Positions 5,076-36,304 of a stretch of 41,231 nucleotides of DNA are shown here, piece after piece. The DNA lies in NCBI GenBank assembly GCA_016234365.1, contig JACRER010000045.1, positions 1 to 41,231 on the forward strand. Direction: 5' to 3'. How positions within the stretch are numbered: position 1 is the stretch's first letter; each line of letters opens with the position of its first letter. The notes under the pieces are model-generated. The model was not told the origin of the DNA and searched no databases. It saw only the letters and a list, made by a program, of their open reading frames with translations. The position numbers and the translations under genes are program-made. Source of the stretch: Elusimicrobiota bacterium (lineage in GTDB: Bacteria > Elusimicrobiota > Elusimicrobia > Elusimicrobiales > UBA9959).

Positions 5076-5711
5076 GTGCCCGGCCGCAAGTTCAAGTACT
5101 TCCCGATGGTCATTTCCGCCCCCTCAGGGGGCGGAAAGACCGTCGTGCGTTCCGGCCTGCTGAAGCTTAACAGGAAGTTCGCTTTCAGCGTGACCTGCAC
5201 TACGCGGACCCGGCGTCCCGGTGAAGTGGACGGCAAGGATTATTATTTCGTGACGGAGGCGCAGTTCCTGAAGCTGCGCAAAGAGGGCAAACTGCTGGAG
5301 TGGGCCCTGGTGCACGGCAACTACTACGGCACCCCGGTGCGGTCCGTGATGACGGTCCTGGAGAAGGGCCGCATCCCGGTAATGACGATAGACGTGAAAG
5401 GCGCGCGCTCGGTAAAGCGCCTGTTCCCAGAGGCGGTGACGGTGTTCCTGCTGCCGCCGGACCTGAAGACGCTGGTACAGCGCCTGCGCGGCCGCGGCGA
5501 GAAGCCGGAGAACGTGGCCGTACGGCTGGAGACGGCGCGTTCCGAGATAAAGGTGGCGGCCACCTTCGACTACCTGGTCATCAACGACAGGCTGCCGGAG
5601 ACGGTGCGCGAAGTGGCTGCGATAGCCGAGCTGGAGACGCGCAAAATAGGCCGCAACCTGGACAAAGTCCGGGAGTTCGGCTCGCAGCTGGCGAAGAAGA
5701 AGAAGTTCTAA
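5076..5711 (+). CDS. gmk: Guanylate kinase
   Basis: Phosphorylates GMP to GDP with ATP in the cytoplasm. The 211-residue protein has the P-loop SAPSGGGKT (residues 14-22), the GMP-binding segment TTRTRRPGEVDGKDYYFVT, the lid/second GMP segment (LLEWALVHGNYYGTP) and the DVKGARSVK segment corresponding to the family's 'DIDVQGA' strand. Length fits the family. The start is GTG immediately abutting the ppdK stop; translation is probably coupled. The following gene is rpoZ, so the common bacterial gmk-rpoZ pair is kept. Confidence 0.95.
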   Translation: MPGRKFKYFPMVISAPSGGGKTVVRSGLLKLNRKFAFSVTCTTRTRRPGEVDGKDYYFVTEAQFLKLRKEGKLLEWALVHGNYYGTPVRSVMTVLEKGRIPVMTIDVKGARSVKRLFPEAVTVFLLPPDLKTLVQRLRGRGEKPENVAVRLETARSEIKVAATFDYLVINDRLPETVREVAAIAELETRKIGRNLDKVREFGSQLAKKKKF

Positions 5712-5724
5712 CGGAGGCTCAAAA

Positions 5725-6048
5725 ATGACGACTGCAAAGGCTGAAAAGAAACAGGACGACCTGGAGAAACTTATTTCCGACTACGGCCCGTCCAAGTACC
5801 AGGATATAGTGCGCGCCATGCAGTGGGCCCGGCACCTGCGCCGCCAGGAGGAGTTCCGCAACGTCCCGATGGCCGAGCTGATAGACCGCTCGCTGCTCGA
5901 CGTGGTCAGCGGCAAGATCAAAGTGGCCGAGATCGAAGAGGCCGTGAAGGTGGACCAGGAGATAGAAGAAAAACTGGCCTCCAAGCGCCCCGACGATTCC
6001 AAGCGGCTGCGCAAAGATTCCGAGAAGCCGGCTAAAGAAGCCGCTTAA
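5725..6048 (+). CDS. rpoZ: DNA-directed RNA polymerase omega subunit
   Basis: A 107-residue protein whose middle (SKYQDIVRAMQWARHLRR, then DRSLLDVVSGKIKVAEIEEA) matches the omega pattern: a helix starting with the '(N/S)KYE.V..AA.RAR.L' motif, then a short segment, then 'AL.E(I/V)..GKI'. Omega binds the beta' C-terminus and helps polymerase assembly. The position directly after gmk (13-base gap, GGAGG-like ribosome site) is the classic one. The charged C-terminal tail (about residues 80-107) is longer than in many omegas and looks disordered. Confidence 0.88.
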   Translation: MTTAKAEKKQDDLEKLISDYGPSKYQDIVRAMQWARHLRRQEEFRNVPMAELIDRSLLDVVSGKIKVAEIEEAVKVDQEIEEKLASKRPDDSKRLRKDSEKPAKEAA

Positions 6049-6057
6049 GCCGCGCAC

Positions 6058-6855
6058 ATGAAGCGCGAACTCGCCGGCGCGGCCAAAGACCTGGCCGCTT
6101 ATCTGAAATCGCAGGACGAGGACCTCGCGGAAGTTCCGCGCGGCGCCGCTGCGCGCCCCGCCGGCAAGTCCCCCGCCACGAAGGCGGCCAGTCCCGCCAG
6201 ACCCATTCCGGCGCCCGCGCCGGCGCATGTCCCTGTGGAGCCCGCCGATATGGATTCCCTCTCCGAAAAAGTCAGGAACTGCCGCAAGTGCGGCCTTGGC
6301 CACGCGCGGCTCAACGCCGTGTTCGGCGTGGGGTCGCCCAAGGCGAAGGTGGTTTTTGTGGGCGAGGGCCCCGGCTTCCAGGAAGACCATAAGGGCGAGC
6401 CCTTTGTGGGCCGCTCGGGCCAGCTGCTGGACAAGATCCTGGAAACGGTGCTCGGGCTCAAGCGCTCCGAAGTGTACATCGCCAATATCGTAAAGTGCCA
6501 CCCCATGAAGAACCCGGAGACTCCGGAAGCGCACGGCAACGACCGGCCGCCCACTCCGGAAGAGATCTCCGCCTGCCGCCCCTACCTGGACGAGCAGCTG
6601 CGCGCCATCCGCCCCGCCTGCATAGTTACGCTGGGTTCGGTAGCCACCAAGGTGCTGCTCGGTACCGATAAGGGCATTTCGCTGGTGCGCGGCCGCGCCT
6701 ACGATTATCCCGTGGAACTTTTCGGCCCCGGCCACCCTATAAAGGTCATTCCGACCTACCACCCGGCGGCCTTGCTGCGCAATCCCAACCTGAAGCGCGA
6801 CACCTGGGAAGACATGAAATTGCTGAAATCTTTCCTGGAAACCGGTAAGATCTGA
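6058..6855 (+). CDS. Family 4 (Fe-S) uracil-DNA glycosylase
   Basis: Removes uracil from DNA as the first step of base-excision repair. The 265-residue protein has a poorly conserved Ala/Pro-rich N-terminal region (to about residue 65), then the family-4 core: GEGPGFQED (about 103-110), PFVGRSGQLLDKIL, and the C-terminal TYHPAALLRN containing the conserved His. Four cysteines at 75, 78 (CRKC), 147 (VKCHP) and 173 (SACRP) have the spacing of the [4Fe-4S] ligands of family 4. The N-terminal Ala/Pro linker resembles that of SPO1 DNA-polymerase-related UDG proteins found in many bacteria. It begins 9 bases after the rpoZ stop and is followed by priA after 10 bases, so it is part of the same operon. 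Confidence 0.9.
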   Translation: MKRELAGAAKDLAAYLKSQDEDLAEVPRGAAARPAGKSPATKAASPARPIPAPAPAHVPVEPADMDSLSEKVRNCRKCGLGHARLNAVFGVGSPKAKVVFVGEGPGFQEDHKGEPFVGRSGQLLDKILETVLGLKRSEVYIANIVKCHPMKNPETPEAHGNDRPPTPEEISACRPYLDEQLRAIRPACIVTLGSVATKVLLGTDKGISLVRGRAYDYPVELFGPGHPIKVIPTYHPAALLRNPNLKRDTWEDMKLLKSFLETGKI

Positions 6856-6865
6856 ACCGGCCGTT

Positions 6866-8839
6866 ATGCTGGCCGAGATCTCCTTCCCCATTCCGCTGAG
6901 GCGGACCTTCTATTATTCGCTGCCCGACGAGCTGGAACTGCAGGCCGCCCCGGGCTTGCGAGTGCAGGCGCCATTAGGGCCGCGCGCCGCCGCCGTGGGC
7001 GTGATCCTGCGCGTCCTGCCCGAGAAGGACGCCGACCTGACCGGCTTTAAAGAACTTAAATCCGTTACCGCCCTGCTCGACGAAACCCCGCTGTTCCCGG
7101 AGGACGCGCTGGAACTTTCGGAGTGGATGGCCGGGCGCTGGGGCTCGCCTCCCGGTCTTTGCCTTGGCGCTTTTTACGCGCACGCCCCTGCCGCGCGCCC
7201 GGCGGCCGCCCCGGCCCCGGCGGCTTTGGCCGCCCTTCCCCCGCCCCGGCCGCCTGAGATAGCGAAACTGCTGGAGAAACTTTCCTCCGGCCCCGCCGCC
7301 TGCCTGCTGCGCCTGGCGCCGCTGGAAAAACGCGAAGCCCTTTACCCGGCTATCTTCGCCGCGGCGCTGGCGCGGGAAGGTGCTCAGGGGCTGCTGCTGG
7401 TGCCGGACCTTGGGTTCATCCCGCCGCTGGCGGCCGCGCTGGAACCTTTTTTCCCCGGCCGCGTGGGAGTCTGGCATGCGCGTCTTACCCCTAAAAAAAG
7501 GGCCGAAGCCTGGACCGGCGCCGCTGACGGCCGCTTCGGCATCATGATCGCAACGCGCACCGGCGTCTTCCTTCCTTTCAAAGACCTGCGCTTTTCGCTG
7601 ATGGACGGGGAGCACGAGGAAGTTTACCGGCAGGAGGAGGCTGAGCCTTTCTATCACGCGCGCGAAGTGCTGCAGCGGCGCATGAAGAAGCTCGGTGGTT
7701 CCGTGCTGCTGGCGAGCCCCTGCCCGTCCATAGAGACGTGGGGCGCGGCCGTTTCGGGCGAGCTTGAGCGCTTTGACGCCGTTGCGCCTGCGGCACCCAA
7801 AGGCCCCGGCGCCGACGTGACGGTGCTGGACATGGAAAAGTACCCTGGCGAGATGCTGGCCCGGCCGTTGGCCGACGGGCTGCGCGCCGCCGCCGCCGCC
7901 GGCAAGCAGGCGCTTATAATATCCGGGCGTAAAGGCTACGCTTCCCGCCTGTTCTGCGCCAACTGCAGCTGGATGCTGCGCTGCGCGGATTGCGGGCCCG
8001 GGCTGACGCTGCTTAAGACCCCCGAGGCCGGGCGCGTGCTGCTGTGCCGCCGCTGCGGCAAGAAGACCCCCCCGCCGGCCGCATGCCCCAAGTGCGGCGG
8101 CAAGGTTTTCAGGGATTACGGTACCGGCACGCAGAAAGTGCAGGAGGCCGCTGCCCGGCTGCTGCCTGGCGCGAAGATAGCCCGTTTCGACGGGGACGTG
8201 CTGCGCGGTTCGCTTAAGACCATGCGCGCCGCCCTCGATAGTTTTTCCTCGGGAGAAGCGGACGTGCTGGTAGGTACCCGCATAGCCCTGCGCGAGCTGG
8301 GCGCGCCGAGGCTTGGCCTGGTGGCCTTTATAGACGCGGACTCCGAACTGGCCAGCGCCGATTTCCGCGCTTCGGAAAAAGCCTACCGCTCTTTCTACGG
8401 CGCCTGGCGGCTGCTGCCGCCGGAAGGCCGGCTGTTCATCCAGACGCGAGAGAGCGGTCACTATGTGTTTTCACGGCTGGCGGAGATGGATTTCCCCTCC
8501 TTCGCCGACGGAGAACTGGCCGCCCGCAAGGACTTTTTCTACCCGCCCTTCTGTCACATCGTCAAGGTGCGCTTTGCGGCCCATGACCGCGCGGCCCTGG
8601 ACGCCGCCGCGGCCGCTTTCCTTAAGACCCTTTCTTTCCTGGACGGGGACGAAACGAGCGAGATACTGGGCCCGGTCACGCCTCCCGGAGAGGAGCGCCG
8701 GAAATTCCACACCGAGTATTACCTGGTGAAGGCCGCTTCCGAAAAGACCGCCGCCCGCTGCCTGGCCGCCGCCCAGGCGCTGCCGCCCAGGGCCGGGGTG
8801 AAGTATTTCATCGAGGCGGACCCGTACGGGCAGCATTGA
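6866..8839 (+). CDS. priA: PriA-like primosomal protein N' with degenerate helicase motifs
   Basis: Homologous end to end to PriA, which loads the replicative helicase at stalled forks. The N-terminal 3'-DNA-end-binding domain is recognisable (residues 1-100, FPIPLRRTFYYSLP). All eight zinc cysteines of the PriA insertion are present (364, 367, 373, 376, 394, 397, 407, 410). The helicase core is changed at every motif: the Walker A segment expected as GVTGSGKT reads RLAPLEKRE (149-157), motif II DEEH reads DGEH (247-250), motif III GSATP reads ASPCP (283-287), and the QVAGRAGR motif VI region reads as YGAWRLLP (about 511-518). Motif Ia (LLVPDLGFIPP) and the RYHARD-like segment (FYHAREV) survive. 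At 657 residues it is slightly shorter than typical. I infer that ATP hydrolysis is lost while DNA and partner binding may remain. Frame is intact, so this is not a simple pseudogene. Confidence 0.85.
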   Translation: MLAEISFPIPLRRTFYYSLPDELELQAAPGLRVQAPLGPRAAAVGVILRVLPEKDADLTGFKELKSVTALLDETPLFPEDALELSEWMAGRWGSPPGLCLGAFYAHAPAARPAAAPAPAALAALPPPRPPEIAKLLEKLSSGPAACLLRLAPLEKREALYPAIFAAALAREGAQGLLLVPDLGFIPPLAAALEPFFPGRVGVWHARLTPKKRAEAWTGAADGRFGIMIATRTGVFLPFKDLRFSLMDGEHEEVYRQEEAEPFYHAREVLQRRMKKLGGSVLLASPCPSIETWGAAVSGELERFDAVAPAAPKGPGADVTVLDMEKYPGEMLARPLADGLRAAAAAGKQALIISGRKGYASRLFCANCSWMLRCADCGPGLTLLKTPEAGRVLLCRRCGKKTPPPAACPKCGGKVFRDYGTGTQKVQEAAARLLPGAKIARFDGDVLRGSLKTMRAALDSFSSGEADVLVGTRIALRELGAPRLGLVAFIDADSELASADFRASEKAYRSFYGAWRLLPPEGRLFIQTRESGHYVFSRLAEMDFPSFADGELAARKDFFYPPFCHIVKVRFAAHDRAALDAAAAAFLKTLSFLDGDETSEILGPVTPPGEERRKFHTEYYLVKAASEKTAARCLAAAQALPPRAGVKYFIEADPYGQH

Positions 8840-8875: not shown

Positions 8876-8883
8876 TAACCGTT

Positions 8884-10056
8884 ATGAACACAGAAGAGTC
8901 GCTTAAAGAGATACTGCGCGGCGTGGTGGACGTGGTCAGCCGCGAAGAACTCATAAAAAAACTTTCCTCCGGCAAGAAACTGCGCGTGAAACTGGGCGTG
9001 GACCCCACCAGCCGGGACCTGCACCTGGGTCACGGCGTAGTGCTGGATAAGCTGCGCAAGTTCCAGGACCTGGGCCACACCGCCGTGCTGATCATAGGCG
9101 ATTTCACCGCCCAGGTTGGCGACCCGTCGGGCAAGGACTCCACCCGCCCCGTGCTGGACCACGACACCGTTTCCGCCAACGCCAAGACCTATACCGAGCA
9201 GGCTTTCAAACTGCTGGACCCGGATAAGACCGAGGTCCGCTTTAATACCGAATGGTTGAAGCCGTTCTTCGCCAGCCCCGCCTCCGGCATTTCCGATTTC
9301 ATCAACACCGCCAAAGGCGTCACTATCTCCCGCCTGCTCGAGCGCGAGGATTTTAAGGCCCGCATGAAGGCCGGCACGCCCATAAGCCTGCTGGAGATCC
9401 TCTACCCGCTGCTGCAGGGTTACGACTCCGTGGCCGTGAAGGCCGACGTGGAACTGGGCGGCCAGGACCAGATCTTCAACCTGCTGGTGGGCCGCGACCT
9501 GCAGAAGGCCAACGGCCAGGAAGCGCAGGTGGTGATGACCGTGCCGCTGCTGGTGGGAACCGACGGCGAGAAGAAGATGTCCAAGTCCTACGGCAATTAC
9601 GTGGCGTTCAACGACCACCCGAACGACATGTTCGGCAAACTGATGTCCCTGTCCGACGCGCTGATGTATTCCTACTACGAACTGCTAACGCTGGAAGACC
9701 TGGCCGCCGTGAAGGCCGAACACCCGATGGAGGCCAAAAAGCGCCTGGCGGGGATAGTCACCGCCCGGTTCCACGGCGCCGAGCAGGCTGCGGCCGCGCG
9801 GGGCCATTTCGAGCAGGTCTTCTCCCGCAAGGAACTGCCCTCCGAAATGGAGGTCTTCCGCGCCGAGAAGCCGGGCAAACTTTCCTACCTGATGGTGGCG
9901 GCCGGCCTGGCCAAGGGCATGAACGAGGCGCGCCGCCTGATAACCCAGGGCGCCGTGCGCCTGGACGGGGAGAAGGTGGCCGACGATATAGTTTTCGAGC
10001 CGCGGGAGTGCGTGCTGCAGGTGGGGCGCCGCCAGTTCCGCAAGATAGAGAAATAG
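8884..10056 (+). CDS. tyrS: Tyrosyl-tRNA synthetase
   Basis: Charges tRNA-Tyr. The 390-residue class I synthetase has the HIGH-type motif HLGH (residues 47-50), the GDFTAQVGDPSG segment, the tyrosine-binding strand QGYDSVAVKADVELGGQDQ and KMSKS (231-235). An S4 RNA-binding domain closes the protein (about 330-390: AAGLAKGMNEARRLITQGAVRLDG). Length and motif style are those of the TyrRS type often called TyrZ. I chose ATG 8884; a TTG at 8836 in the same frame would add 16 residues overlapping the priA end without any family similarity. It is followed after 8 bases by a FecR-domain gene with GGGGCAGG just before its ATG. Confidence 0.95.
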   Translation: MNTEESLKEILRGVVDVVSREELIKKLSSGKKLRVKLGVDPTSRDLHLGHGVVLDKLRKFQDLGHTAVLIIGDFTAQVGDPSGKDSTRPVLDHDTVSANAKTYTEQAFKLLDPDKTEVRFNTEWLKPFFASPASGISDFINTAKGVTISRLLEREDFKARMKAGTPISLLEILYPLLQGYDSVAVKADVELGGQDQIFNLLVGRDLQKANGQEAQVVMTVPLLVGTDGEKKMSKSYGNYVAFNDHPNDMFGKLMSLSDALMYSYYELLTLEDLAAVKAEHPMEAKKRLAGIVTARFHGAEQAAAARGHFEQVFSRKELPSEMEVFRAEKPGKLSYLMVAAGLAKGMNEARRLITQGAVRLDGEKVADDIVFEPRECVLQVGRRQFRKIEK

Positions 10057-30180: not shown

Positions 30181-30639
30181 CTACTTCTTTTCCTGAAGGT
30201 TCATGCCGCATTTGGGACACTTTCCGGGCTTGTCTCCCTGGTAATCTCCCATGGGGCAGATGTATAGCCTGGCCTTTGGGGAGCTCTGTTTTGGCTTCTC
30301 CTTCACCGCGTACTTTTCCGGGTCCGCCTTGAAAAGCGTATCGCACTCGTTGCAGCAGAAATAGTAGATCCTGCCCTTGTACGTGACGGAGATAGTTTCA
30401 GGAGAGATCTTGACCTTGTCTCCCGTCACCGGACAGACGGCCTCCTTGCCGATTTCGTCCCTGCCCGGCTTGCGGGTCGTCGCCCTGGCTTTGCCCGCTT
30501 TTGGCGCGGCGGCCGGTTTGGCGGGCAGCATTTTTTCAGACCGGGCCCGTGCTGGCTGTGCCGGTTTTTTGTCTGCCGTGTCAGCCGCGAAGGCGGCGGT
30601 GCAGCCCAACAGTAACATCGCTATAAGCGGTATTTTCAT
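30181..30639 (-). CDS. Exported YHS-domain plus heavy-metal-binding-domain protein
   Basis: A 152-residue protein. The N-terminal signal (MKIPLIAMLLLGCTAAFA) contains LLGC at residues 10-13, so it may be a lipoprotein. After a Lys/Ala/Pro linker comes a YHS domain (about 65-112: AVCPVTGDKV, then YKGRIYYFCCNECDTLFKADPEKY; Cys69, 95, 96, 99) and then a heavy-metal-binding domain (about 126-148: YICPMGDY, KPGKCPKCGMNL; Cys128, 141, 144). Its ATG overlaps the cusA stop (ATGA), so it is translated as the last gene of the efflux operon. YHS domains are often found with copper-handling proteins; a periplasmic metal-buffer role is likely. Confidence 0.85.
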   Translation of the reverse strand: MKIPLIAMLLLGCTAAFAADTADKKPAQPARARSEKMLPAKPAAAPKAGKARATTRKPGRDEIGKEAVCPVTGDKVKISPETISVTYKGRIYYFCCNECDTLFKADPEKYAVKEKPKQSSPKARLYICPMGDYQGDKPGKCPKCGMNLQEKK

Positions 30640-33600
30640 AATTCTCCTCCGTTGTTCCGGTATTGCGCGGTATTTGCGGTCGAAGGCTCCATGCCGCGTT
30701 TCTTCCAAAGGTAGAAGACCACGGGGTAGACGAGGAGTTCCAGCGCGAAGCTGCTGAACAGGCCGCCTATCATCGGGGCCGCTATGCGCTTCATCACGTC
30801 GGAGCCGGTGCCGAGCGCCCACATGATGGGCACCAGGCCCATGAAGGCCGCCATCACCGTCATCATCTTAGGGCGTACGCGCTTAACCGCGCCGTGTATC
30901 ACGGCCTCTTCCAGGTCCCGCGGGGAATTCAGGCGGCCGGCTTTCTTCATGTCGTCGTAAGCGAGGTCCAGGTAGAGCAGCATGAACACGCCCGTCTCGG
31001 CGTCCAGGCCCATCAGGGCTATCATGCCCACCCAGACCGCTATGGACATGTTGTAGCCCAGCAGGTACACCAGCCACACCGCGCCGATGAGAGAGAAAGG
31101 CACCGCCAGCAGCACTATAGAGGTCTTCACCGCGGACTTGGTGTTCATGTAGATGAGCAGGAAGATCAGGAACAGCGTCAGCGGCAGCACGAACTTGAGC
31201 CGCTCGCGCACGCGCAGCATGTTCTCGTACTGCCCGCTCCACTGCAGGGTGTAGCCGGCGGGAAGTTTTATCTTTTCCCCCACCAGTTTCTTGGCCGCGT
31301 GCACGTAGCTGCCCACGTCCACGCCCTCGATGTCGACGTAAACGTAGCCGGAAAGCAGGCCGTTCTCGTCGCGGATCATCGCGGGGCCCTGGCGGAAGTC
31401 GATGTCGGCTATCTCGCCCAGCGGCACATTGACGCCGCCCTCCGAGGTCACCAGCACGCGCCGCAGTTTGTCCACGTTGTCGCGGAAGTCGCGGGCGTAG
31501 CGCACGTTGACCGAGTAGCGCTCGCGCCCTTCTACCGTGGTGGTCAGGTTCTGGCCGCCTATGGCGGTCATCAGCGCCATCTGCGCCTCTTTGACGGTGA
31601 GCCCGTAGCGGGCCAGCGCTTCGCGCTTCAGAGTGAAGTCAAGGAAGTAGCCGCCGGCGGTGCGCTCGGCGTAGACGCTGCGCGTGCCCTTCACCTGCCG
31701 CACTATCTTTTCTATCTCTATGCCGGTGTCCTCTATCTTCTTGAGGTCGGAGCCGAAGATCTTTATGCCTACCGGCGTGCGCACGCCGGTGGTGAGCATG
31801 TCTATGCGGGCCTTGATGGGCATGGTCCAGGCGTTGGACACGCCGGGGAACTGCATCTTGGAGTCGATGTCCGTGATGAGCTCGTCCCAGCTCAGGCGGT
31901 CGTGCCAGACATGGCGCAGCGGGCGCTGCAGCAGTTCCGGCAGCCAGGAAGAATACCAGCGGTCCTTCTTGCGCCACTGGTCCTGCGGCTTGAGCACCGC
32001 CACGGTCTCCATCATGGAGAACGGAGCCGGGTCGGTGGAGGTCTCGGCGCGGCCGGCCTTGCCGAACACGCGTTCCACCTCGGGGATGGACTTCAGCACG
32101 CGGTCCTGCGTTTCCAGCAGGCGCTGCGCCTCGGTTACAGAGATGCCGGGCAGGGTGGTGGGCATGTAGAGGATGGTGCCCTCGTTGAGCGGAGGCATGA
32201 ACTCGGAGCCGGTCTTTAAATAGACAGGTATCGTGGTTAAGATAAGGAACAGCGCGGCGGCAATGACCTTCCTGGGGTGCTCCAGCGTCCAGCGGCAGAC
32301 CGGCTCATATATTCTAAACAGGCGGCTGGAGATCGGGTGCTGCTCCTCCGGGTAGTATTTCCCGACGGTGACGGCGTTGAAGATATTGGACAGCCAGGCC
32401 GGTTTGAAATATTTGTAGTCCATGCGCGTGAACATCATGCGCAGAGCCGGGTCCAGCGTGATGGCCAGCAGCGCCGCCACGAACATGGTGAGGTTCTTGG
32501 TATAGGCGAGCGGCTTGAACAGCCGGCCTTCCTGGTCCACCAGCGTGAAGATAGGCATGAACGCCACCGCTATCACCAAGAGCGAGAAGAACACCGACGG
32601 GCCCACCTCCTGCAGCGCCTCCAGCCGCACCGCGTGGAAGTCCCCCTTCCTGCCTCCCGAATCCCAGTGCTCCAGCTTCTTATAGGCGTTCTCCACCTCC
32701 ACTATGGCGCCGTCCACCAGCACGCCAATAGAGATGGCTATGCCCGACAGCGACATGATATTGGAAGAGATGCCCATAAAATACATCGGGATGAAGGCCA
32801 GCAGCACGGAGACGGGAATAGTTACTATCGGGATGACCGCTGAAGGGATGTGCCACAGGAAGATCAGTATCACCAGGCTCACGATCAGCATTTCCTCGGT
32901 GAGCTGGCGCTTGAGCGTGGCTATGGCGCGCTTTATCAGGTCCGAGCGGTCGTAGGTAGTGATTATCTCCATGCCCTCTGGCAGGGAGGCCTTTATCTGC
33001 TCTATCCGCTCTTTGACGCGGTCTATCACCGTCAGCGCGTTCTCGCCGTGGCGCATCACCACTATGCCGCCCACGGCGTTGCCCTCGCCGTCGAGGTCGG
33101 ATACGCCGCGGCGCATCTCGGGCCCGGCCGTCACCGTGCCCAGGCTCTTCACCAGCACCGGCGTGCCGCCGGCGCCGCGGGCCACCACGATGTTCTCTAT
33201 GTCCGCGATGGACTTGGCGTAGCCCTTGCCGCGTATCATGTACTCCGCGCCGGAATATTCTATCAGGCGGGCGCCGGCCTCTTCGTTGCCGTCGCGAACG
33301 GCGTTTATGACTTTGTCGATGGAGATGCGGTAGGCGGCCAGCGAGTTGGGGTTCAGGTTCACCTGGTACTGCTTCTGGAAGCCGCCCACGGCGGCCACCT
33401 CGGCCACGCCGGGCACCGACTGCAGCTGGTAGCGCAGGTTCCAGTCCTGGAAGGAGCGCAGCTGCGCCAGGTCGTGCCTGCCGCTTTTGTCTACAAGGGC
33501 GTACTGGTAGACCCAGCCCACGCCGGTGGCGTCGGGGCCCAGCTCGGTCTTTACGCCTTCGGGCAGCTGCGGCAGGATCTTGCTCAGGTATTCCAGCACC

Positions 33601-33923
33601 CGGGCGCGGGCCCAGTAGATGTCCGTGCCGTCCTCAAAAATGACATAGACGTAGGAGAAGCCGAAATCCGAGAAGCCGCGTATGGTCTTTACTTTAGGCA
33701 GGCCGAGCAGGGAAGTGATGACAGGGTAGGTGACCTGGTCTTCGACGATGTCCGGAGAGCGGTCCCATTTAGAATAGACTATGACCTGCGTGTCGGAAAG
33801 GTCCGGGATGGCGTCGAGGTTGACGTTCTTCGCGGCGAAATAGCCGCCGGCCACGGCGGCCAGCGCGAAGATCAGGACGAGCGCCCGGTTATGAGCGGAA
33901 AAGGCGATTATCTTTTTGATCAT
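30636..33923 (-). CDS. cusA: Heavy-metal efflux RND transporter, CusA-like
   Basis: Inner-membrane proton antiporter, the pump of a CusCBA-type copper/silver efflux complex. In 1095 residues it has the HME-RND layout: TM1 (about 13-32), periplasmic porter domain, TM2-6 (LIVSLVILIFLWHIPSAVIPIV; SSNIMSLSGIAISIGVLVDGAIVEVENAYKKLE with the conserved Asp/Glu of TM4), a second porter domain and TM8-12. The methionines of LYMPTTLPG, MMETVAVLKP and RIDMLTTG fall where, as I recall, the Met triad of E. coli CusA lies, which favours Cu(I)/Ag(I) over divalent ions. It begins 3 bases after the cusB stop. Frame is intact and length normal. Confidence 0.94.
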   Translation of the reverse strand: MIKKIIAFSAHNRALVLIFALAAVAGGYFAAKNVNLDAIPDLSDTQVIVYSKWDRSPDIVEDQVTYPVITSLLGLPKVKTIRGFSDFGFSYVYVIFEDGTDIYWARARVLEYLSKILPQLPEGVKTELGPDATGVGWVYQYALVDKSGRHDLAQLRSFQDWNLRYQLQSVPGVAEVAAVGGFQKQYQVNLNPNSLAAYRISIDKVINAVRDGNEEAGARLIEYSGAEYMIRGKGYAKSIADIENIVVARGAGGTPVLVKSLGTVTAGPEMRRGVSDLDGEGNAVGGIVVMRHGENALTVIDRVKERIEQIKASLPEGMEIITTYDRSDLIKRAIATLKRQLTEEMLIVSLVILIFLWHIPSAVIPIVTIPVSVLLAFIPMYFMGISSNIMSLSGIAISIGVLVDGAIVEVENAYKKLEHWDSGGRKGDFHAVRLEALQEVGPSVFFSLLVIAVAFMPIFTLVDQEGRLFKPLAYTKNLTMFVAALLAITLDPALRMMFTRMDYKYFKPAWLSNIFNAVTVGKYYPEEQHPISSRLFRIYEPVCRWTLEHPRKVIAAALFLILTTIPVYLKTGSEFMPPLNEGTILYMPTTLPGISVTEAQRLLETQDRVLKSIPEVERVFGKAGRAETSTDPAPFSMMETVAVLKPQDQWRKKDRWYSSWLPELLQRPLRHVWHDRLSWDELITDIDSKMQFPGVSNAWTMPIKARIDMLTTGVRTPVGIKIFGSDLKKIEDTGIEIEKIVRQVKGTRSVYAERTAGGYFLDFTLKREALARYGLTVKEAQMALMTAIGGQNLTTTVEGRERYSVNVRYARDFRDNVDKLRRVLVTSEGGVNVPLGEIADIDFRQGPAMIRDENGLLSGYVYVDIEGVDVGSYVHAAKKLVGEKIKLPAGYTLQWSGQYENMLRVRERLKFVLPLTLFLIFLLIYMNTKSAVKTSIVLLAVPFSLIGAVWLVYLLGYNMSIAVWVGMIALMGLDAETGVFMLLYLDLAYDDMKKAGRLNSPRDLEEAVIHGAVKRVRPKMMTVMAAFMGLVPIMWALGTGSDVMKRIAAPMIGGLFSSFALELLVYPVVFYLWKKRGMEPSTANTAQYRNNGGEL

Positions 33924-33926
33924 AAC

Positions 33927-35078
33927 CTAGTCCCCGAGCGCCGCCTTCATCCTGGATTCGGAATCTATCATGAAGTTGGCCGAGATCACCACGTTCTCCC
34001 CCGCCCGCAGGCCGGAGACAACCTCGGCGTAATCCTCGCTGCGGCGGCCGGTCTTCACTTCGCGCGGAACGAAAGTTCCGGCGTCCTTCATCACGAAAAC
34101 TATTTCCTTCTCGCCGGTATTGAGCACCGCGGAAACCGGCACGGCCAGCGCGGTGCCTAGGTCGGCCTTTATCTGCGCCTCCACGTACATTTCCGAGCGC
34201 AGCTCGCGGCCCGGGTTAGCGGTCTCTATGCGGACGCGCAGCGTGCGGGTCTCCTCGGAGAAGATCGGGTCCAGCGAGCGCACTACGCCCGAGAACTCCC
34301 GGCCGGGATAGGCGCTGGAGGTTATAGCGGCCTTCTGCCCGGGCTTCACGGCGGCGGATTCGTATTCGTAGACCTGGGCGTACACCCAGACCTCGTCCTC
34401 CGGTAGCAGCAGGTTCTCGTAGCGGCCGGGGTTCTTCTCGGCGGCGGCTATCTGCTCCTCGCCGAAACCCATCTGCCGCAGTTTCATCTTCGAGGAGTCG
34501 GCCACGGCGCGGGCCCGCTCGGCGGCCTCGGGCCAGGAGCCGTTCTTTATCTTTTCATAGGCCTCGAGGGAGCCCCTGTATTCGCTGATGGCGCGGTAGA
34601 GGTCGGGGTCGTAGGCCACCTTGCCGGAAGCGCGCACCGTCCTGGTCAGCGTCCTGTACGCGGCTTTGCCGGTCTTAAGGCCTATCAGCTGCTGCTTCTC
34701 CGGGCTTATCTTCACCGTGCCGTGGCCGGCCACGGCGGGCCCCGCGGCGGAGTCCTCGTAGACCGGCACGTAGTCCATGCCCATCTCGTCCTTCATGGGG
34801 ACTCTGGACGTTACGGCGGGGTTCATGGGATTGCGGTAGAATTTAACTTTGCGCTCTGCCGGGGCCTGCTCCGGCGCGGCTTCGCGCTTTACCAGGTGCA
34901 TGCCGCAAATGGGGCAGTCGCCCATGTGGTCGGCGGTATAATCCGGGTGCATCGGGCAGTAGTAAACCTCAACCCTGGCCTGGGCGCTGTGCCCGGCGTG
35001 GAAATGGCGGTAAGCCGCGAAGCCTCCCCCGGAGAGGACTACGGCGAATATGCCGGCGATGATAGTATTCCTGGTCAT
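33927..35078 (-). CDS. cusB: Periplasmic adaptor (membrane fusion protein), CusB-like, with N-terminal metal-binding domain
   Basis: A 383-residue adaptor linking CusA to the TolC partner. An N-terminal anchor (about 5-22) is followed by a heavy-metal-binding domain (YYCPMHP...GDCPICGMHL; Cys41, 55, 58), then a degenerate second copy lacking Cys but keeping Met (FYRNPMNP, DEMGMDYVPVY), the latter typical of CusB. The core includes the barrel-sandwich (TRTVRASGKVAYD), alpha hairpin (about 170-215), beta barrel (VWVYAQVYEYESAAVKPGQKA) and C-terminal domain (FVPREVKTGRRSEDYAEVVSGLRAGENVV). It overlaps the TolC-like gene by 4 bases (ATGA). Confidence 0.93.
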   Translation of the reverse strand: MTRNTIIAGIFAVVLSGGGFAAYRHFHAGHSAQARVEVYYCPMHPDYTADHMGDCPICGMHLVKREAAPEQAPAERKVKFYRNPMNPAVTSRVPMKDEMGMDYVPVYEDSAAGPAVAGHGTVKISPEKQQLIGLKTGKAAYRTLTRTVRASGKVAYDPDLYRAISEYRGSLEAYEKIKNGSWPEAAERARAVADSSKMKLRQMGFGEEQIAAAEKNPGRYENLLLPEDEVWVYAQVYEYESAAVKPGQKAAITSSAYPGREFSGVVRSLDPIFSEETRTLRVRIETANPGRELRSEMYVEAQIKADLGTALAVPVSAVLNTGEKEIVFVMKDAGTFVPREVKTGRRSEDYAEVVSGLRAGENVVISANFMIDSESRMKAALGD

Positions 35079-36304
35079 AAACCTTCTCCTGTCAGGCTTT
35101 TGATGCGGCCCAGCCAGCCGGCGTAGCCCGCGCTGTATTCATAAAACTCGCGCCTGGTTTCCAGCAGCGTGCGGTTGGAGTCCACCAGGTCGAGGAAATC
35201 GGTCTTGCCCGCCTGGTAGCCGGCCTCGGCCGCCTTCAGCGACTGCTCGGCCTGCGGCAGCACCGTGCCGGAGTAAAGTTCAGTCAGCCGCGCGTAGTAG
35301 TTCAGCTTTACCGAGGCTTCCTTAAGCTCCAGCAGCAGCGCGTTCCTGGCCGCCGCGTATTCCGCCGCGGCCATGTCCCGCTCAGCCTTCGCCTCGCGGC
35401 CCATCGCCGAGGTCTTGCCGTACCAGAGCGGCACGGTGAGCCCGAGCGAGACGTCGTAGGTGCCGTCCATCGCCGGGTCGTCGGAGCCGCGGCGGCGCCA
35501 GCTCAGCATGAAGTCTGGCGCGTATTCCGCCTTGCCGAGCGAAACTCTCTTCTCGGCGGCCTTGACCCTGGCGGCCATGGCCGCCAGGTAAGGATTCTTC
35601 GCCAGCGCGGCGGCTTCCAAAGACTTGTAGTCGGCGGAAGAAGTCTTAACGACGGAATCTTCCGGCTCCGCCAGCTCGGTTTCCTGAGGCTTATTGCGCA
35701 GCGCGTTCAGGCGGGCCGCGGCCGTTTCTTTCTCCTGCTGCGCCGTAATGAGCAGGTTCAGCGCCTTGGAGAGTTCAACCTGCGCCTTGATCGCGTCGCC
35801 CTGCGTGCCCTGGTTCACGGCGTAGCGCGTCTCGGCTATGGTGGCGAACCGCTTGAGGAGGTCCAGGTTCTCGGCGTAGATCCGCTCCGTGCGCCAGAGC
35901 AGGGCGTAGTCGTAGTAGGCGGCCCTGGCTTCGGCTAAAACTTTGTTGGCCTTGTCGCCGCGCAGGGCGCCGTATGCTTCGCTCTCGGCTTTGGCCGCGC
36001 TTTTTTGCAGCTTATACTTGTAGGGGTTCCTGAATTCCTGCCGGATAAGGATATTGCGCTCGGCCGCGCCGGAGCCCAGCGCCCCGTCGGCGTACATGCG
36101 CTCGAACTCCACCACCGGGTCCATCGGGAGCCAGGCCTGCTTTACCTTTTCCGAGTAGGCGCCCGCCAGGGCCGCGGCGGCGGCTATCTCCGGGTTATTG
36201 GCCCGCACTTCGGCCAGGTACGAGTCCAGGCGCAGGCGCGGGGCCTCCTGCGCCGCCGCTAAAGCGGGCAGTGCGGCTATCAGGAGGAGCGTGAGCTTGT
36301 TCAT
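35075..36304 (-). CDS. TolC/CusC-family outer-membrane efflux protein
   Basis: A 409-residue protein with a signal peptide (MNKLTLLLIAALPALAAA) and two tandem TolC repeats of long Ala/Glu/Lys-rich helices. The repeat starts are visible as LRLDSYLAEVRANNPEIAAAA (about 24-44) and YKSLEAAALAKNPYLAAMAARVKAAEKRV (about 225-253). It supplies the outer-membrane channel for the CusBA pump encoded immediately downstream. No lipobox Cys is present, unlike E. coli CusC. A Gln/Glu-rich loop and the C-terminal segment QAGKTDFLDLVDSNRTLLETRREFYEY are typical of the family. Confidence 0.92.
   Translation of the reverse strand: MNKLTLLLIAALPALAAAQEAPRLRLDSYLAEVRANNPEIAAAAALAGAYSEKVKQAWLPMDPVVEFERMYADGALGSGAAERNILIRQEFRNPYKYKLQKSAAKAESEAYGALRGDKANKVLAEARAAYYDYALLWRTERIYAENLDLLKRFATIAETRYAVNQGTQGDAIKAQVELSKALNLLITAQQEKETAAARLNALRNKPQETELAEPEDSVVKTSSADYKSLEAAALAKNPYLAAMAARVKAAEKRVSLGKAEYAPDFMLSWRRRGSDDPAMDGTYDVSLGLTVPLWYGKTSAMGREAKAERDMAAAEYAAARNALLLELKEASVKLNYYARLTELYSGTVLPQAEQSLKAAEAGYQAGKTDFLDLVDSNRTLLETRREFYEYSAGYAGWLGRIKSLTGEGL

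Follow-up and report, generated by a model that had tools for sequence, protein, structure and literature searches.

The window analysed here, a stretch of 41,231 nucleotides from an Elusimicrobiales bacterium, is contig C23 of a host genome of 2.72 Mb that is 96.5% complete. Its plus strand carries a gene run consisting of a guanylate kinase gene (gmk, 5076..5711), a 107-aa ORF (5725..6048), a gene for a family-4 uracil-DNA glycosylase (6058..6855) located directly upstream of priA, priA itself (6866..8839) and, downstream of it, the tyrosyl-tRNA synthetase gene tyrS (8881..10056). The 107-aa ORF is rpoZ-like by position and by eye alone and has no Pfam match. The same order of gmk, rpoZ-like ORF, glycosylase, priA and tyrS was present in relatives wherever the flanks allow, with the exception of locus L058, in which tyrS was not found. 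Elsewhere in the window, positions 30636-36304 of the minus strand hold an RND efflux operon (an AcrB-family pump, a membrane fusion protein that carries a heavy-metal-binding domain, and an outer-membrane efflux protein), which looks like a metal exporter, and an ORF at 228-740 of the plus strand resembles, by eye, the terminal portion of an RHS-repeat protein whose C-terminal part varies, and had no Pfam match at 0.001.

The glycosylase neighbour deserves some attention, since PriA might have acquired a role outside replication restart, such as uracil repair. The glycosylase gene precedes priA directly in 27 of 29 loci, that is, wherever the flank is present, as the remaining two loci start less than 70 bases from priA. 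However, the gene run also includes guanylate kinase and tyrS, which are unrelated to repair, neighbourhood is weak evidence in general and PriA retains its fork-binding parts, so that a repair role appears quite improbable.

The open frame of priA encodes 657 aa and matches PriA domain and family profiles. The 3'-DNA-end-binding domain (PF17764, 6878..7171) is kept, scoring 64.6 bits against a cut-off of 22.7, as is the PriA C-terminal domain (PF18074, residues 561-653, 8546..8824; 33.6 bits against 26.9); Helicase_C (PF00271) stays below its cut-off (16.8 against 23.5). The view of the initial annotation that the frame and the 3'-end-binding domain are intact was thus borne out. The closest named PriA relatives are those of Elusimicrobia bacterium GWA2_62_23 and of other Elusimicrobia MAGs, at 71-79% identity.

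Alignment with E. coli PriA placed LAPLEKREA in the position of the Walker A sequence GVTGSGKTE, with R156 at the site of K230 (former motif I, residues 147-157, LLRLAPLEKRE, 7304..7336), and GAWRLLP in the position of QVAGRAGR, so that the former motif VI (residues 508-517, RSFYGAWRLL, 8387..8416) is without its arginine-finger pair. The initial annotation had considered both motifs lost, and the wider genus agrees: among 26 distinct proteins, neither Walker A nor GRxGR was found in any (0/26 each). A chance misalignment of motif I was ruled out by intermediates: GPPQSGKTQ, GPPQHGRYE and TPPGVEREK form a series that ends in LAPLERREL. For motifs II and III the claimed loss needs a small correction. 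In the former Walker B or motif II (residues 247-250, DGEH, 7604..7615) DEEHD has become DGEHE, E321 being replaced by G248, but the aspartate (D320, here D247) and the second glutamate (E249) are kept; the D-E pair occurs in 1 of the 26 genus members. Likewise, the former motif III (residues 283-287, ASPCP, 7712..7726) reads ASPCPS for GSATPA, but S284 and P287 are kept. The GTR of motif V is also kept. One member of the genus (L044:6001-7968) carries DEEH in motif II with motifs I and VI replaced, the residue having been either retained or restored.

All eight zinc-ligand cysteines are present in the cysteine-rich region (C364-C410, 7955..8095), as had been claimed: C364, 367, 373, 376, 394, 397, 407 and 410 align with E. 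coli PriA C436-C479, and the eight are kept in 26/26 proteins of the genus. Residues 254-266 (YRQEEAEPFYHAR, 7625..7663) form a further kept element, the equivalent of the E. coli PriA loop for which we take "aromatic-rich loop" to be the name, following the title of a cited reference. Of the winged-helix region, only a short, variable stretch is left (residues ~106-145), with 1 of 40 sites invariant. In the 3' pocket Tyr replaces Asp17; damage to the pocket by this change was rejected, as Tyr is also found in 17/59 intact relatives (nine rows of the motif table are the same genes from two collections and are still counted in this tally and in those for Nitrospirota, whereas they are excluded from the distinct-protein motif counts and from dN/dS). 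An alignment of intact and eroded PriAs with 47 rows, corresponding to 46 distinct proteins given that L060 and L126 are the same gene, contains 17 invariant columns, which include all eight cysteines and no catalytic residue. With 296 bits the window PriA nevertheless exceeds the 230 cut-off of the TIGR00595 priA model, and the automatic name "replication restart helicase PriA" is therefore misleading for a protein that passes without catalytic residues.

Maintenance of the gene was examined through selection within the genus, a check that the initial annotation had proposed. The dN/dS was far below 1, with a median of 0.193 and a maximum of 0.321 over 313/325 pairs from 26 distinct genes (those in the usable dS range, for which dS is approximate), and the six closest gene pairs gave 0.12-0.24. 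Intact PriAs of family f21 gave 0.288 overall by the same method. PF17764 is present in all 46 relatives that are >=90% complete and <=5% contaminated. The median dN/dS, the conserved neighbours and this consistent presence led us to reject a pseudogene or an assembly error. A relic that is decaying towards loss would be in line with the stepwise erosion and with relatives that are very degenerate (f1g11, f19), but the same low dN/dS, the full-length frame throughout the genus, the conserved neighbours, PF17764 in 46/46 good-quality relatives and the eight cysteines in 76/77 proteins of the order make it extremely improbable. The window priA is not a broken gene: it is under purifying selection, lies in a conserved gene order and has a complete predicted PriA fold.

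Selection is unevenly distributed along the protein. Nonsynonymous change relative to the dS of the gene, with domain borders drawn by eye on the E. coli alignment, was lowest in HD2 (0.115), followed by the 3'-end domain (0.134), while HD1, the zinc region and the C-terminal domain were each near 0.20 and the linker reached 0.585; 71 of the 145 HD2 sites are invariant in the genus. The residues that replaced the former motifs are themselves nearly fixed, with R149 in 26/26, E154, R at 155 and R156 in 25/26 each, and A513, L516 and L517 in 26/26 each. Such strong conservation hints at a new use of the dead site. According to one alternative, ERRE (for the P-loop) and AWRLL (for motif VI) would lock the two RecA lobes in a single state or dock a partner, a mechanism absent from active PriA. 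The near-fixation of these residues and the constraint on HD2 speak for it; however, the replacements are quite different in other genera of the order, so there is no single shared new function, and we regard it as a tentative proposal whose odds are against it.

The predicted fold of the window protein is that of a complete PriA. The AlphaFold2 model, built from the 47-row alignment, has a pLDDT of 88.3 and a pTM of 0.86, and contains the strand-loop-helix that would carry the P-loop (E145-149, H156-167). Its solved structural relatives are PriA chains only: the top nine PDB matches of Foldseek are all PriA, the first being 8fak_H, the fork- and PriB-bound E. coli PriA (TM 0.79/0.81), and a second structural aligner matched 8fak_H with a Z of 29.4 over 626 residues, the best non-PriA chain being Mfd with 20.9. 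A second PriA was also sought, as the initial annotation had suggested, and the profile search of the host genome returned a single PF17764 match; the remaining TIGR00595 matches there fall in ORFs whose sizes are those of Mfd, RecG and UvrB. Neither a second canonical PriA nor relaxed selection, the two sequence findings by which the initial annotation would have been refuted, was therefore seen. Taken from its sequence, ORF 6866-8839 is best explained as a PriA orthologue, in an Elusimicrobiales bacterium, that turned into a pseudohelicase.

The initial annotation had also raised the possibility of a lineage-wide change, and our analysis revealed one larger than proposed, which extends through the entire order to two further lineages of Elusimicrobiota and to many Nitrospirota. 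TIGR00595 matches were found in 336/340 Elusimicrobiota genomes, with low scores in the window's order and high scores in other orders, and the PriAs for motif reading were taken from both sides. Rows L001, L023 (truncated), L026, L084, L145, L147, L149 and L161 were left out of the motif table, and L146, L148 and L150 had no PriA match. Among the distinct PriAs of Elusimicrobiales (families f1 and f2), motif I is retained in 25/77, the D-E of motif II in 11/77, motif VI in none of the 76 that could be read (L136 being cut off there) and the eight cysteines in 76/77. In the remaining Elusimicrobiota (f16-f19 and f26 being tallied separately), motifs I and II are present in 59/59 each, motif VI in 58/58 (one protein being unreadable at this motif) and the eight cysteines in 59/59. 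Erosion is also seen in families f16-f19 (10 proteins) and f26 (2), with motif VI in 0/12 and motif I in 0/12, although L139, one of the twelve, is a fragment that does not cover motif I. In genus f19g71 (L156, L157, L158) some zinc-ligand cysteines are also lost in 3/3; these proteins are very degenerate, and the decay of PriA seems to be continuing in this genus, zinc region included.

Partial motif sets within the order make the sequence of events readable. Genus f1g5 carries GPPQSGKTQ, DEEQD and EASGRISK, and genus f2g17 carries GDAMTGKSE, DEEQD and QAAGRLCG. Since motif VI is gone everywhere it could be read in the order, and Walker A or B still survives in scattered genera, the arginine-finger motif was lost first, and the phosphate-binding sites decayed later, and repeatedly. 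On an rpoB tree built with FastTree, in which G203 and G005 have no PriA states, there were four losses of motif VI, seven of Walker A and eight of Walker B if an intact root and no regain are assumed. The four motif VI losses fall once in Elusimicrobiales, in f16-f19, in f26 and in Nitrospira, and f26 counts as a loss of its own, distinct from f16-f19, because f26 is sister to the intact f20, f21 and f24. The PriA tree, obtained by a quick method with SH-aLRT only, joins the order to f10, f12 and f15 of the same class (supports 92-99) and agrees with the rpoB tree on vertical descent and repeated loss.

The intermediates also bear on a nucleotide-sensing scaffold, in which ATP would be bound, not hydrolysed, and would regulate PriA. 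GKT/S is retained in family f2 and in two f1 genera (the 25/77 distinct rows), where nucleotide binding may survive, and the window PriA itself keeps D247 and E249, but the P-loop Gly-Lys-Thr/Ser occurs in 0/26 proteins of the window genus, and we deem sensing of this type unlikely.

Among the loci matched by the window protein there was also the eroded PriA of a Nitrospira MAG (L064). We read 46 Nitrospirota proteins, chosen across the score range from the 148 genomes searched and thus not a random sample; 14 have all motifs and 32 are without motifs I, II and VI, with the eight cysteines kept in 32/32 eroded proteins. The eroded loci are L232-L253, L256, L258, L265-L271 and L064, and some lie on long single contigs, e.g., L265. 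This loss of the motor is possibly as notable as the Elusimicrobiales finding. A horizontal transfer of one dead PriA between the two groups was considered, given the look-alike replacements (APWEHRVN and DGEDD in one, APLEKREA and DGEHE in the other), and was rejected: the quick PriA tree separates the two, with the eroded Nitrospirota on one side of a branch of their own, the Elusimicrobiales likewise, and the latter grouped with their intact class-mates. The likeness of the replaced motifs is thus convergence and not transfer, so far as the tree shows.

With regard to the partners of PriA, the host genome encodes DnaB (533 bits) and has a dnaA-dnaN-dciA-gyrB run in which DciA lies between dnaN and gyrB. 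No DnaC-type loader was found in the host genome, the two PF01695 matches over the cut-off being DnaA and a 589-aa ORF. An SSB with the acidic tail EEVPF is encoded in an rpsF-rpsR-rplI-dnaB neighbourhood, the genes around ssb being named by eye. A second SSB-family protein (L273, own genome, C20:52498-52839) is without an acidic C-terminal tail and ends in basic residues.

We consider it probable, on sequence and by analogy, that the PriA pseudohelicase serves as a fork-recognition scaffold that hands DnaB, likely via DciA, to forks without unwinding them. Abandoned forks would be recognised through the 3'-end-binding domain, the fork-junction loop, the zinc region and the C-terminal domain; the protein would then act as an ATP-independent platform for loading DnaB, which DciA and not a DnaC-type loader would deliver, and trimming of the nascent lagging strand would be done by another helicase or be needless. 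For the window PriA itself, we infer from sequence and precedent the absence of ATPase activity, the binding of forks and the hand-over of DnaB with DciA. The "scaffold for primosome loading" of the initial annotation is likewise the best inference at hand, and two published precedents, the PriA of Deinococcus radiodurans and E. coli K230A, help by making the mechanism plausible. For Caulobacter, DciA has been proposed, without a test, to work together with PriA. A number of observations count against it. DciA was found in 55/61 relatives searched, hence not in all, and its scores are modest. The helicase lobes remain under constraint, with the lowest dN/dS in HD2, which is more than a plain platform would call for. 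The Tyr at Asp17 of the 3' pocket was also counted against the scaffold, though it is common in intact PriAs. A bolder version remains speculative in our opinion and is doubtful as a whole: it joins recurrent loss of the PriA motor (at least four entries in the sampled lineages, motif VI first where readable) to a genus-specific ERRE/AWRLL element that would lock or dock an ATP-independent DnaB loader working with DciA.

It is also conceivable, although we do not favour it, that another helicase took over the unwinding step and that PriA lost its motor as a consequence. The host genome does encode a UvrD/PcrA/Rep-type SF1 helicase (772 bits to TIGR01073, below the cut-off of 911) and an ORF of RecG size. 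However, such helicases are widespread (TIGR01073 in 12/14 control genomes) and also occur beside active PriA, so their presence alone explains nothing. In its main line, the initial interpretation of a PriA kept for a non-helicase role is supported by our results, which speak neither way on its suggestion of another restart helicase.

The motor was lost in a whole order, in two further Elusimicrobiota lineages and in many Nitrospirota, and the zinc cysteines were kept in nearly all. This suggests that what cells cannot do without is fork recognition and DnaB hand-over by PriA and not its unwinding. The graded series of proteins with all motifs, with only motif VI lost, with motif VI and Walker A lost and with all lost allows the need for the helicase to be tested across cells. 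In the literature searched for PriA together with Elusimicrobiota or Nitrospirota, no report of motor loss in either group was found. Judged by its motifs, the window PriA is a more deeply eroded and independently evolved PriA pseudohelicase, which is a known kind, and the new part is the breadth of the motor loss and the readable order of loss.

Among known systems, the actinobacterial PriA branch (PRK14873 models) is, to our knowledge, without recognisable helicase motifs according to database annotation. The window PriA is not of that branch, as it scores 328 bits to PRK05580 versus 137 to PRK14873. With the PriA of E. coli and Klebsiella (PDB 8fak, 6dcr, 4nl4, 4nl8) it shares the domain order, the fold and the eight zinc cysteines, but differs in having no catalytic residues and a shortened winged-helix region. 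The laboratory mutants K230A and K230R of E. coli PriA are ATPase-dead, and a 1992 paper by Zavitz and Marians is cited in this connection. These are engineered single changes, whereas the changes in the window PriA arose naturally, are ancient and affect every motif. K230A was used in DnaB reloading assays, and the ATPase-dead form still supports reloading in vitro (PMC10175261). The closest parallel in nature is D. radiodurans, whose PriA does not hydrolyse ATP and binds ssDNA, forks and DnaB; there too the Walker A and B boxes are degraded and PriA was kept by the lineage (PMC4504706). In its introduction and its figure legends, that 2015 paper presents Deinococcus-Thermus as an exception, PriA helicase motifs being otherwise well conserved (in a logo of 100 sequences from 18 phyla; PMC4504706). 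The Walker A lysine of D. radiodurans is an arginine within a poor match. In the window PriA, by contrast, the replacement extends to the entire P-loop, to motifs II and VI and to part of motif III, and the protein belongs to another phylum, with the intermediates of its erosion preserved in sister genera.
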